This document shows positions 4,840 to 8,084 of a stretch of 64,000 bases of DNA, piece after piece. The DNA is taken from contig NZ_JAGFBV010000001.1 in the NCBI RefSeq assembly GCF_017948595.1, positions 62,001 to 126,000 of the forward strand, in the 5' to 3' direction. Position numbers and translations under genes: made by a program. The notes below the pieces were generated by a model that was given only the letters and a program-made list of their open reading frames with translations, did no database searches and was not told the DNA's origin. Numbering within the stretch: position 1 is the stretch's first letter; each line of letters begins with the position of its first letter. This DNA comes from Flavobacterium geliluteum. GTDB lineage: Bacteria; Bacteroidota; Bacteroidia; Flavobacteriales; Flavobacteriaceae.

Positions 4840-4914
4840 TCAGAATGTTTTTATAATTGTAATTTGATTTTTTTTTTCTGCTAGGGATAGAAGTGGAAAG
4901 CCCGTAAAGGAGAA

Positions 4915-4981
4915 AACCTTAAAAAAACAAAGAACAAATAAGCGACCAGCGGAAGCTTTTTTGTTCTTTGTTTTTTTGGTT
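4915..4981. repeat. Long perfect hairpin with GC-rich loop between thiS and thiC
   Basis: Bases 4921-4938 pair perfectly with 4960-4977 (18 bp, AAAAAAACAAAGAACAAA type). After one T-T mismatch a further 4 bp (4940-4943 with 4955-4958) close an 11-base loop, GACCAGCGGAA. Outside, 4915-4918 (AACC) pairs with 4978-4981 (GGTT) across a two-base bulge. On the minus (transcribed) strand the 44 bases upstream of it, at 4982-5025, are unusually GC-rich for this genome and contain a GCTCGAGC palindrome. The overlapping open frames look accidental. From memory, similar sequence with a translated RAGYPF frame recurs between genes in other Flavobacteriaceae, but I could not check this. A structured RNA or dispersed repeat is likely. 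Confidence 0.75.
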
Positions 4982-5025
4982 GCCGACTGCGGACTTGGAA
5001 CGGATAGCCCGCTCGAGCAGCCCAA

Positions 5026-5494: not shown

Positions 5495-6055
5495 TTATAG
5501 TGTTCTTGTCCAGCAATCTTCGACATGATCGTTGACCATTCCCGTTGCTTGCATGTGCGCGTAAATGACGGTTGACCCCACAAATTTGAAGCCTCTTTTT
5601 TTTAAATCTTTGCTAATTTCGTCAGAAAGGGCGGTGGTGGCGGGAACGTCTTTTAGCGTTTTTGGTTTATTGTCTATCGGTTTTCCGTTGGTAAATTTCC
5701 AGATGTAATTGGAGAAACTGCCAAACTCTTCCTGTATTTTTATAAAAGCCTGAGCATTGGTTACAGCCGATCTTATTTTGAGTTTGTTGCGAATAATTCC
5801 GGTGTCTTGTAATAAAGTCTCTATTTTTTCTTCGGAATATTGTGCTATTTTTTTGTAATCGAAAGCATCAAAAGAAGCCCTAAAATTTTCTCTTTTATTT
5901 AAAATGGTAATCCAGCTTAGGCCTGCCTGAAAGGTTTCGAGGATGAGGAATTCAAATAGCGAGGCATCATCATAGACAGGAACCCCCCATTCGTGGTCGT
6001 GGTATTTTTTGTATAAATCGCTTGCTGAGCACCAGCCACATCGGTTGAGTTCCAT
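5495..6055 (-). CDS. tag: DNA-3-methyladenine glycosylase I
   Basis: Tag removes N3-methyladenine from alkylated DNA, starting base-excision repair. The 186-residue length is typical. The N-terminal CGWCSASDLYKKYHDHEWG segment, with DHEWG, and the C-terminal GSTVIYAHMQATGMVNDH followed by a Cys carry the family's zinc-binding Cys/His residues (HhH-type fold). The catalytic-region segment FQAGLSWITILNKRENFR is present. A TATATTTG -7 element on the minus strand at 6066-6073 lies only about 11 bases upstream of the ATG, so the mRNA may be nearly leaderless. That element abuts the first copy of the duplicated terminator (6073-6115). Confidence 0.95.
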   Translation of the reverse strand: MELNRCGWCSASDLYKKYHDHEWGVPVYDDASLFEFLILETFQAGLSWITILNKRENFRASFDAFDYKKIAQYSEEKIETLLQDTGIIRNKLKIRSAVTNAQAFIKIQEEFGSFSNYIWKFTNGKPIDNKPKTLKDVPATTALSDEISKDLKKRGFKFVGSTVIYAHMQATGMVNDHVEDCWTRTL

Positions 6056-6072
6056 TTTTTTATTTCAAATAT

Positions 6073-6115
6073 ATAAAAAAACCTCAAATGGTTTAGGTTT
6101 GAGGTTTTGCAGGTT
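6073..6115 (-). terminator. Intrinsic terminator, first of two identical 43-bp copies
   Basis: AAAACCTCAAA at 6078-6088 pairs with TTTGAGGTTTT at 6098-6108 around a 9-base loop, with an A-run on one side and T on the other, so it can work in both directions. Here it terminates the unknown gene at 6135-6515. The same 43 bases recur exactly at 7361-7403. Confidence 0.85.
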
Positions 6116-6134
6116 GTTTTTTGTTTTAATGAAT

Positions 6135-6515
6135 TTATTTCATCATTGCTATAAATTGTAGTTTGAAACTTTCTAATTTAATTAAATAAAATATAGTAAA
6201 TAATAAAACCCAACCAATAAAAATCAAAAGTAAACTTGTATAGTTTTGATTTATAAATTCAGCATATTGGCAAAAAAAACCAAAAAAGATAAGTAAGAAA
6301 AAATTGTAAAGTACTGCGTTTTTAAGGCTCATTTTGATAGCACCTGTTAAAAAATTCCAGTTTACAAGTTGATCAGTTATTACGGTTTTTTGAGGACTCG
6401 ATAAATCAATTATTATATTTTGACAAAACTCAAGATTAACAATTATTACGTCATTCTTTAAATTATATTTATAATTATTCTCTTCGAGAATTTTAAGGAT
6501 TTCGTCTCTTCTCAT
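6135..6515 (-). CDS. Small two-TM membrane protein, unknown function
   Basis: I do not recognise this 126-residue protein. The first 60 residues are soluble, beginning MRRDEILKILEENNYKY, and contain a VIIVNLEFCQNIIIDL strand-like stretch. Two hydrophobic segments follow, at roughly residues 63-82 and 93-112, with a short charged tail. It starts 7 bases after the lipoprotein gene at 6523-7281 and is certainly co-transcribed with it. The pair lies between two identical terminator copies. An immunity or partner protein for the upstream lipoprotein is one possibility, from gene order only. Confidence 0.65.
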   Translation of the reverse strand: MRRDEILKILEENNYKYNLKNDVIIVNLEFCQNIIIDLSSPQKTVITDQLVNWNFLTGAIKMSLKNAVLYNFFLLIFFGFFCQYAEFINQNYTSLLLIFIGWVLLFTIFYLIKLESFKLQFIAMMK

Positions 6516-6522
6516 TTTTATA

Positions 6523-7281
6523 TTATTCTATTGTTGGTGTGAGGATTTCTGGATTTTCTGGTTCTAATGGTGCGACTTCATAAGGAGGTAAAGCTTCATT
6601 AACAAATAGTGACGAAATACCACCTGCAATTATTGCTCCAGGTCCGCTATATGCAAAAATAAGTGCTCCCAAAGTGTCAGCGACTATTACTTTACTACCT
6701 GGCTTACTGTTAGATTTGTTTGTTGAATTATGTGTAGAACTCCAATATTCGTTAGAACTTTTTAAAACACTTTCGAAAACAACTAGTTTGTTTTGTTCTT
6801 CTAAATTTAATGAATTACTTTTTTTAAAATTTTCAATTTCTACCACATACTGATCATATTCCATATCTTTTTTCAATATTGCATCAACAAAACTACCCAA
6901 TTTTCTTGATAATTTATTTGATCTGTATAATTCTTCTTTTTTTGAATTCCAAAATAAAGCGATATCAAAATTTCTAGGATCAATATCTTTAAAAGCCTCT
7001 TTTATATCGCTAACATCAACGTTTTTAAATTTTTCGGGATATTTTGCTGTAAGATCAGCAGTCATTTCATCAATTATTATATTAGTTGTTTTCTGATTTA
7101 CTCCATTTTGATTTTTGTAATATAATGCTAATGCTTCATTGTGATAAAAACCATAATCTGCTAAAGGAATTACATCTCTTCCTGTGATAGATTGTTGTTC
7201 CTCCGATTGTTCTTTAGTACAGCTTATATATGCTACACTTGTTACAACTAATAATAAAATTGCTAATAATACTTTTTTCAT
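6523..7281 (-). CDS. Predicted lipoprotein with glycine-rich hydrophobic C-terminal segment, unknown function
   Basis: This 252-residue protein has a lipoprotein signal (MKKVLLAILLLVVTSVAYIS then Cys21), so it is probably anchored in the cell envelope. The middle is charged and helical-looking. Residues about 203-230 form a Gly/Ala-rich hydrophobic segment (TLGALIFAYSGPGAIIAGG) resembling the glycine-zipper stretches of membrane-active peptides and some bacteriocin-like proteins. The tail is rich in Pro and Glu. No enzyme motif is visible. Its own -7 element TATTTTTG lies on the minus strand at 7308-7315, about 27 bases upstream of the ATG, so with the terminators it forms an autonomous unit with the 6135-6515 gene. 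The function is unknown. Confidence 0.75.
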   Translation of the reverse strand: MKKVLLAILLLVVTSVAYISCTKEQSEEQQSITGRDVIPLADYGFYHNEALALYYKNQNGVNQKTTNIIIDEMTADLTAKYPEKFKNVDVSDIKEAFKDIDPRNFDIALFWNSKKEELYRSNKLSRKLGSFVDAILKKDMEYDQYVVEIENFKKSNSLNLEEQNKLVVFESVLKSSNEYWSSTHNSTNKSNSKPGSKVIVADTLGALIFAYSGPGAIIAGGISSLFVNEALPPYEVAPLEPENPEILTPTIE

Positions 7282-7360
7282 AATTATAAATTTTTGGTTT
7301 AAAATTACAAAAATATAAGTTTTTTATTAATAAAAAAATGAAAATTATAAAAAATAATAC

Positions 7361-7403
7361 ATAAAAAAACCTCAAATGGTTTAGGTTTGAGGTTTTGCAG
7401 GTT
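7361..7403 (-). terminator. Intrinsic terminator, second of two identical 43-bp copies
   Basis: This is identical over 43 bases to 6073-6115, with the same 11-bp hairpin. It lies 19 bases after the stop of the queuosine-precursor transporter gene and ends that transcript. Identical copies on both sides of two unknown genes suggest duplication of the terminator by an insertion. Confidence 0.85.
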
Positions 7404-7421
7404 ATTTATTTATCGTCAAAT

Positions 7422-8084
7422 TTAATCTTTATCCGAATTGTTTTCATCTAAATATTTTTTAATGAGATGGTGTCCGACATAAATTAACGGAGTTAGTAAA
7501 ACGGCCACCGAAAGTTTAAAAACATAGCCTGTCAATGCAGAGGATATAAAGGTGTCGAAATTTATTTTTCCCGGAAGCCAAAATGCAATTCCGAGAACAA
7601 TAAACGAATCAAAAAGTTGCGAAATTACAGTAGAACCAGTTGTTCTCAACCATATTTTTTTGTCGCCTGTTTTGTTTTTAAAGAACCAAAAAACGCTGAC
7701 GTCAATCAATTGAGAGACCATAAATGCAATGATACTACCAACAATGATCCACATACTTTGGCCAAACACGGCTTGAAATTGTTCGTCATTTACCGGGCTA
7801 ATTCCTTTTGCGGCGGGCACTATCATCGCCATGATTAAAATGACAAAAGCATAGGCAATCAGGCACGCTGTTATAAAAGAAAGTTTTCTAACCCCTTTTT
7901 CTCCAAAATATTCATTGATCAAATCGGTAGTTAGAAATACAACCGGCCAAGGCAAGATACCGATACTCATGACAAAAGGGCCAACCTGAATTAATTTTCC
8001 TCCAATGAGTTCTGCCACTACAGCATTGGTTATAAAGATACCAGCAAGGACTACAAAAACAATTTCTTTCTTGGTTTTGAACAT
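7422..8084 (-). CDS. Queuosine precursor transporter (YhhQ family)
   Basis: This family imports preQ0/preQ1-type queuosine precursors across the inner membrane. The 220-residue protein is almost wholly hydrophobic with about six membrane segments. It has the family features GPFVMSIGILPWPVVFLTTD followed by LINEYFGEKGVRK near the N-terminus, and a later SQLIDVSVFWFFKNKTG segment. The epoxyqueuosine reductase gene queG is also in this window (49235-50173), consistent with a cell that makes or salvages queuosine for tRNA. The gene stands alone and is followed by the terminator at 7361-7403. Confidence 0.9.
   Translation of the reverse strand: MFKTKKEIVFVVLAGIFITNAVVAELIGGKLIQVGPFVMSIGILPWPVVFLTTDLINEYFGEKGVRKLSFITACLIAYAFVILIMAMIVPAAKGISPVNDEQFQAVFGQSMWIIVGSIIAFMVSQLIDVSVFWFFKNKTGDKKIWLRTTGSTVISQLFDSFIVLGIAFWLPGKINFDTFISSALTGYVFKLSVAVLLTPLIYVGHHLIKKYLDENNSDKD

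Follow-up and report, generated by a model that had tools for sequence, protein, structure and literature searches.

Organization of the yhhQ-tag locus

The window, a stretch of 64,000 nucleotides of the Flavobacterium geliluteum genome (G000), carries two genes between the core genes yhhQ and tag (Table 1). According to the list of open reading frames, both lie on the minus strand and are separated by 7 bp. As originally predicted, one encodes a putative lipoprotein with a lipobox-like ISC motif and the other a small protein with two hydrophobic stretches, hereafter the TM protein. Within the cassette, the G+C contents are 23% and 29%, compared to 35% for the window. We take the -7 consensus to be TAnnTTTG, and -7-like elements are named here on that basis. 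One of these, TATTTTTG on the minus strand, precedes the lipoprotein gene at the place where a -7 element of the pair had been proposed, and another, TATATTTG, precedes tag.

Table 1. Features of the yhhQ-tag locus (positions refer to the window)
Feature	Position	Strand	Basis
tag, DNA-3-methyladenine glycosylase I, downstream core gene	5495..6055	-	NCBIfam TIGR00624, 247.8 bits (cutoff 232.5); Pfam PF03352
TATATTTG, -7-like element of tag, overlapping the end of the tag-side repeat copy, 10 nt before the tag ATG	6066..6073	-	
Tag-side (resident) copy of the 43-bp putative terminator	6073..6115	-	Repeat scan, genome search, fold; context of hairpin, -7-like element and tag ATG common to B-type relatives and G065
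TM gene, 126-aa protein with two TM segments, proposed immunity protein	6135..6515	-	ORF list, structure model, hydropathy
Lipoprotein gene, 252-aa protein, proposed toxin	6523..7281	-	ORF list, structure model, hydropathy
TATTTTTG, -7-like element assigned to the pair, 26 nt ahead of the lipoprotein ATG	7308..7315	-	
Upstream (second) copy of the 43-bp putative terminator, 18 bp past the yhhQ stop codon, without the tag -7-like element	7361..7403	-	
yhhQ-type queuosine precursor transporter, upstream core gene	7422..8084	-	TIGR00697, 128.4 bits (cutoff 50.95); PF02592

A repeat scan identified a direct repeat of 55 nt (6068-6122 and 7356-7410; 95% identical) whose inner 43 nt are identical and enclose the two genes, in agreement with the original prediction. 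The five other direct-repeat families detected in the window with the same settings are 25-30 nt long and 77-84% identical. When up to 3 mismatches were allowed, the 43-mer was found at exactly two places in the 4.38-Mb genome (0 for the reversed control), and the stem pattern AAACCTCA-N4..20-TGAGGTTTTTT was found genome-wide at the same two places only. The 43-mer is thus not a general genomic repeat, and its presence at many unrelated places, which would have spoken against an insertion, was not observed. Two further matches from an earlier search, one at 82% over about 53 bp (judged by eye) and one at 77% over about 63-70 bp, do not count as copies of the 43-mer. The doubling is that seen in a contig of 373 kb belonging to a draft assembly of 112 contigs.

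In the sense of the genes, an 11-bp hairpin is predicted for each copy (-10.4 kcal/mol, z -4.7, none of 200 shuffles as good), with seven consecutive T at the end of its 3' side, four of them paired in the fold. Each 43-bp copy therefore reads as a putative intrinsic terminator of the minus-strand genes. The upstream copy stops where the tag promoter starts.

On the other side of tag, a TPP riboswitch (RF00059; 5321-5417, minus strand; 73.8 bits, gathering score 54.3) lies upstream of thiS and thiC and adjoins tag; it was the only match of the Rfam scan to reach the gathering score. The gap between thiC and thiS (4876-5018) contains a sub-threshold match to the Flavo-1 RNA and an A/T-rich hairpin (about 4920-4978).

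Occupancy of the yhhQ-tag junction in Flavobacterium

yhhQ was found in 285 of 398 genomes of the genus, each species being represented by one genome. We compared 100 junctions, comprising 99 from the upper part of the yhhQ listing and that of the window; G203 and G413, cut by contig ends, and some others were left out, and G304 was dropped as it has no tag in cis. Gaps were counted between the aligned protein ends, and the states were labelled by hand and then checked with profiles. Thirty junctions are empty, 41 carry a lipoprotein gene called A, 21 carry A followed by a second gene, B, 4 carry B, 2 carry B followed by A, one carries A and a TM gene (G065) and one, that of the window, carries the lipoprotein and TM genes. 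The profile search confirmed the classes of the slot ORFs; it also revealed a B without an open start in G232, a second B-like gene in G197 and an interrupted A in G008. The B protein of G008, the only B protein scanned, is a Lipocalin_4 protein.

In 29 of the 30 empty junctions the gap between yhhQ and tag is -5 to 29 bp, the exception being G291, and yhhQ directly followed by tag is the commonest state outside the large-genome clade. That empty junctions are common is also seen in 16 junctions outside the set of 100: in 15 of these, yhhQ and tag are -7 to 28 bp apart, and in G009 the gap of 552 bp holds another small gene. When present alone, A mostly joins the operon, its stop codon overlapping the tag start or lying within 3 nt of it in 31 of 41 junctions (32 by script minus G338, in which, by eye, an early ATG runs into a stop). 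A search for A in six genomes gave no match in G000 or in G184, which is empty, and a single match, located at the slot, in each of the other four. Mapped on the yhhQ tree, the state of the slot requires at least 34 changes, compared to a mean of 48.9 when states are shuffled; the slot thus turns over, yet related genomes still tend to agree in state.

None of the 99 other junctions holds both genes of the pair, so that their presence here in most relatives, which would have contradicted an insertion, was not found. The original description of the pair as a movable accessory unit in a core region is supported in so far as it is an accessory insert between core genes, three tenths of the junctions are empty, and the pair or the TM gene is found elsewhere in other genomes. 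The TM gene also occurs beside tag in other genomes, intact in G065 and as a fragment in G520, and so the family has occupied the yhhQ-tag slot more than once or for a long time. Separately, G520 carries at a further place an intact TM gene with no lipoprotein match (L224 and L226), the fragment beside its tag lying after A and B.

A mobile element was considered as the identity of the insert and rejected. No recombinase ORF was found between 6135 and 7281 in the ORF list or in family scans, and no integrase or transposase was found among the ORFs of the insert or in the one A and one B protein that were scanned. Relatives of the two proteins could not be confirmed on any viral contig, and no pair of inverted repeats of at least 24 nt bounding the insert was seen.

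Turnover of genes in chromosomal hotspots without mobile elements is described in Oliveira et al. 2017 (PMC5635113). The slot resembles these hotspots, as presented there, in that conserved core genes enclose a changing set of accessory genes with no integrase seen; different accessory genes between the same core genes were found here as seven states in the set, with the changes given above. Unlike the hotspots in that account, the slot carries one to three small genes, in or out of the operon, and a terminator and the tag promoter mostly accompany the inserted unit.

Origin of the doubled terminator

The spacer in front of tag was scanned for a hairpin and a -7-like element, the latter accepted as TAnnTTTG or TAnnTTTA. 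Both were present just before tag in 19 of 100 junctions. All 19 belong to the 27 in which B, TM or the lipoprotein and TM genes lie next to tag; the same scan found the combination in none of the 71 junctions that are empty or carry A only. In the remaining 8 of the 27 the scan did not find one or other of the two elements, or found neither, and in G408, G004 and G298 the arrangement around B is operon-like, the spacers measuring 6-23 bp. B, TM and the lipoprotein and TM genes are mostly separate units with a spacer in front, the T-run of the terminator being fused to the -7-like element of tag in the 19 junctions. In G106 and G229, changes on one side of the stem are matched by changes on the other, so that pairing is preserved (by eye). 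A degenerate hairpin follows A in G239 and, by eye, a piece of a -7-like element follows A in G338. In the two genomes with B then A, the hairpin comes after B. In G252 and G362 (L183, L184), where the order is B-terminator-A, the piece before A resembles by eye the 3' end of yhhQ, as if B had come in with a copied yhhQ 3' end; the repeat scan remained below its threshold there. As the order of hairpin, -7-like element and tag ATG is common to B-type relatives and G065, the tag-side copy in the window is the resident one, its homology being given by its position and surroundings.

Above the threshold of the scan, a direct repeat flanking the insert was found in 0 of the 99 other junctions. Motifs of the exact 43-mer variant of the window were absent from the fetched loci of other genomes, the best other junction matching at 34 of 43 positions, which argues that it was the local copy that was doubled; the exact 43-mer had no match in viral contigs. 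The doubling is thus a local event that, among the junctions sampled, is confined to the lineage of the window. Since the doubled terminator occurs only at the window junction, bracketing by terminators is not a general mechanism of the slot. The original proposal, that the insert entered at a terminator and duplicated it, is upheld in so far as there is an accessory insert and a doubled local terminator, but as an event it is a one-off in the set, the repeat recurring at no other of the 100 junctions.

These comparisons bear on two other explanations of the repeat. In one, the terminators form the ends of a mobile cassette that is moved by recombination of one terminator copy with another; the direct repeats do bracket exactly two genes and the pair does occur at other sites in other genomes. 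However, the flanks of the pair at these other sites carry other hairpins (by eye), no other junction reaches the threshold of the repeat scan and the motifs of the 43-mer are in no fetched locus of another genome. This reading is already disfavoured and we regard it as very improbable. According to the other, the upstream gene and the pair each had a terminator beforehand, and the two were made identical by gene conversion rather than by a duplication at insertion. The similarity of the copies drops abruptly at both ends, other units of the slot have hairpins of the same stem and a T-rich stretch after A in G065, seen by eye and not folded, is maybe another hairpin, all of which would suit conversion. 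Against this, a like terminator directly follows yhhQ in 0 of the 99 other junctions (by eye), and a third copy is absent from the genome; we therefore think conversion rather unlikely and favour a duplication of the local terminator.

Closely related pairs of genomes display the breakpoints. G065 and G345 are 96% identical to the end of A, after which comes a TM unit of about 636 bp, and then tag at 92%. Likewise, G229 and G328, G240 and G257, and G125 and G311 differ by one clean block, B, between the preceding gene and tag. In the yhhQ tree, a starred set (96/85) consists of G000, G201, which carries A only, and the empty G291; G000 is at most 83% identical to any row. G291 has an insert-free spacer of 55 bp that aligns with the tail of the window terminator and the tag promoter, and its own hairpin is weak (z -1.3).

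The original prediction took transporter, terminator and tag as the ancestral order. In contrast, the old state is yhhQ abutting tag, as 29 of 30 empty junctions have neither a hairpin nor a -7-like element according to the scan. The order transporter, terminator and tag may instead be an intermediate state, because the near relative G291 keeps an insert-free, decayed remnant of it. An insertion had been expected to leave strains with a single terminator and no insert; insert-free sites are indeed frequent among the junctions read, but none was found to have an intact terminator and the remnant in G291 is the only trace. Nor was a donor found.

The history could then have run from yhhQ-tag to an insulated unit, through loss of this unit leaving terminator and promoter, to entry of the pair and copying of the terminator. 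This sequence of events fits the tree and the G291 remnant; copying of the terminator is the step we infer. The pair would have entered at or beside a terminator-promoter remnant like that of G291, and recombination or break repair would have copied 43-48 bp. In the window, the doubled local terminator would insulate the pair on both sides. Exchange between species would use homologous recombination within the core genes on either side. Taken together with this entry of the pair and with the toxin and immunity functions considered below, we lean towards the yhhQ-tag junction being a small chromosomal slot in which accessory genes come and go without a recognizable mobile element.

The lipoprotein and its small partners

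Neither protein gave a Pfam or NCBIfam match above cutoff, a PADLOC match, or a PDB sequence below E 0.3; PHROG returned nothing below E 0.03 (E 0.03 or worse for the TM protein). As judged from these searches, the two families match no described family, and a literature search by title gave nothing on the yhhQ-tag locus or the pair. The model of the lipoprotein is helical (mean pLDDT 80) and comprises, after the lipobox-like motif, a helical domain with a GFYHNE motif and a C-terminal Gly-rich helical hairpin (helices 196-208 and 215-230) whose best 19-residue mean hydropathy, 1.57, is only moderate. Foldseek found no match to this fold in the PDB at E 0.001, and the best VIA match (Z 3.5) is a designed protein; the colicin fold is not among the PDB matches, an absence that does not exclude a relation. 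The model of the TM protein is weak (mean pLDDT 69), with a small N-terminal beta region and two long hydrophobic helices.

At E 0.001 or better, counting the window genome and weak hits, the lipoprotein was found in 16 and the TM protein in 24 of 398 genomes of the genus. In G006, G229, G131 and G338, the pair lies in a variable stretch near prfA; G368 has only the lipoprotein there, in a stretch flanked by the genes for release factor 1 and topoisomerase III. The neighbours of the same stretch were also found in F. chilense and in G106 (TM only). In the window genome this stretch holds other genes, and the only matches of the pair are beside tag. The topB-prfA stretch of the window genome (L220; G000:C19:5000-20500) includes, among other accessory genes, one for a ParD-family antitoxin (TIGR02606), adjoined by a 97-aa ORF that is presumably its toxin.

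A small partner ORF starts 3-59 bp after the intact lipoprotein gene at 13 of 14 places (G000, G368, G006, G229, G131, G001, G385, G028, G258, G027, G193, G517, G627 and F. chilense), the exception being G368. A place in Aquimarina, with a partner present, was left out of this count, as were G338 with its frameshift, the G321 remnant and the weak matches in G332, G165 and G104. Judged by eye, these partners fall into several dissimilar types, mostly membrane proteins: the TM kind of the window, a second kind with a beta region and two TM segments, a 107-aa multi-TM protein (G627) and a 112-aa protein (G193) for which a membrane location is not evident. Beside relatives of the lipoprotein, G193 (L046, 2618-3322) and G001 (L056, 1693-2400) encode further secreted proteins with hydrophobic, Gly-rich stretches; in G193 the stretch precedes an HNE-like domain, as if the order of domains had been swapped.

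Fourteen genomes have a clear TM match. An intact lipoprotein gene lies beside TM in six of them (G000, G006, G131, G229, G385 and G028), the lipoprotein gene is frameshifted or a remnant in three (G338, G321 and G080), and none was found in five (G065, G106, G169, G239 and G279), the TM gene of G239 itself having a stop. The tree of TM proteins did not resolve whether the TM genes at the slot in G000 and G065 are sisters. TM without an intact adjacent lipoprotein gene, in 8 of 14 genomes, corresponds to an immunity gene that persists after loss of its toxin and so fits toxin and immunity. The only reverse case is G368, with an intact lipoprotein gene and no TM match; were the protein toxic to its own cell, this state would not be tolerated unless immunity came from elsewhere. 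The moderate hydrophobicity of the hairpin and the lack of a fold or family match gave no support to a pore-forming or bacteriocin function.

The lipoprotein could be a membrane-active antibacterial protein from which the small two-TM protein would protect the producer. It is possible, if doubtful, that lipoproteins with interchangeable small partners are undescribed surface-anchored, membrane-active antibacterial toxins of Bacteroidota with their immunity proteins, TM acting as a shield, and that they are traded at yhhQ-tag and topB-prfA. Quite conceivably, the lipoprotein and TM protein are instead an envelope or signalling pair and not toxin and antidote; the absence of a match to a toxin or bacteriocin family and the intact lipoprotein gene without TM in G368 point in that direction, but the patchy occurrence of both genes in the genus, the swapping of partners and the TM genes without lipoprotein do not.

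For toxin and immunity, precedents of similar layout exist. Pore formers of the colicin type have a helical domain with a hydrophobic helical hairpin, and immunity to them is conferred by a small membrane protein. The pair is alike in its helical domain with a helical hairpin and in its candidate small membrane immunity protein; unlike colicins, the predicted lipoprotein would be lipid-anchored, and the PDB searches gave it no significant match, although a relation may exist all the same. In the report on Cdz of Caulobacter (PMC5380434), a contact-dependent bacteriocin consisting of CdzC (86 aa) and CdzD (84 aa) is served by a type I exporter and a membrane immunity protein, CdzI. In layout only, the pair may be likened to it, since in both a Gly-rich segment belongs to a protein of the cell surface, putatively so for the lipoprotein, and the proposed immunity protein is small and would lie in the inner membrane as CdzI does; unlike Cdz as described there, the lipoprotein has 252 aa and no exporter lies beside it.

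Combined, the results place yhhQ-tag in an ordinary kind of locus, a turnover hotspot without mobile element (PMC5635113), with an unusual local duplication and a pair that matches no described family. The junction offers 100 species-level snapshots with clean breakpoints in close pairs, and thereby a small, countable case of a core operon that is opened, filled, re-insulated and emptied again, in which a terminator fused to the promoter of the next gene travels with most inserted units. The pair itself is a concrete and cheap-to-test candidate for a putative antibacterial toxin-immunity family.
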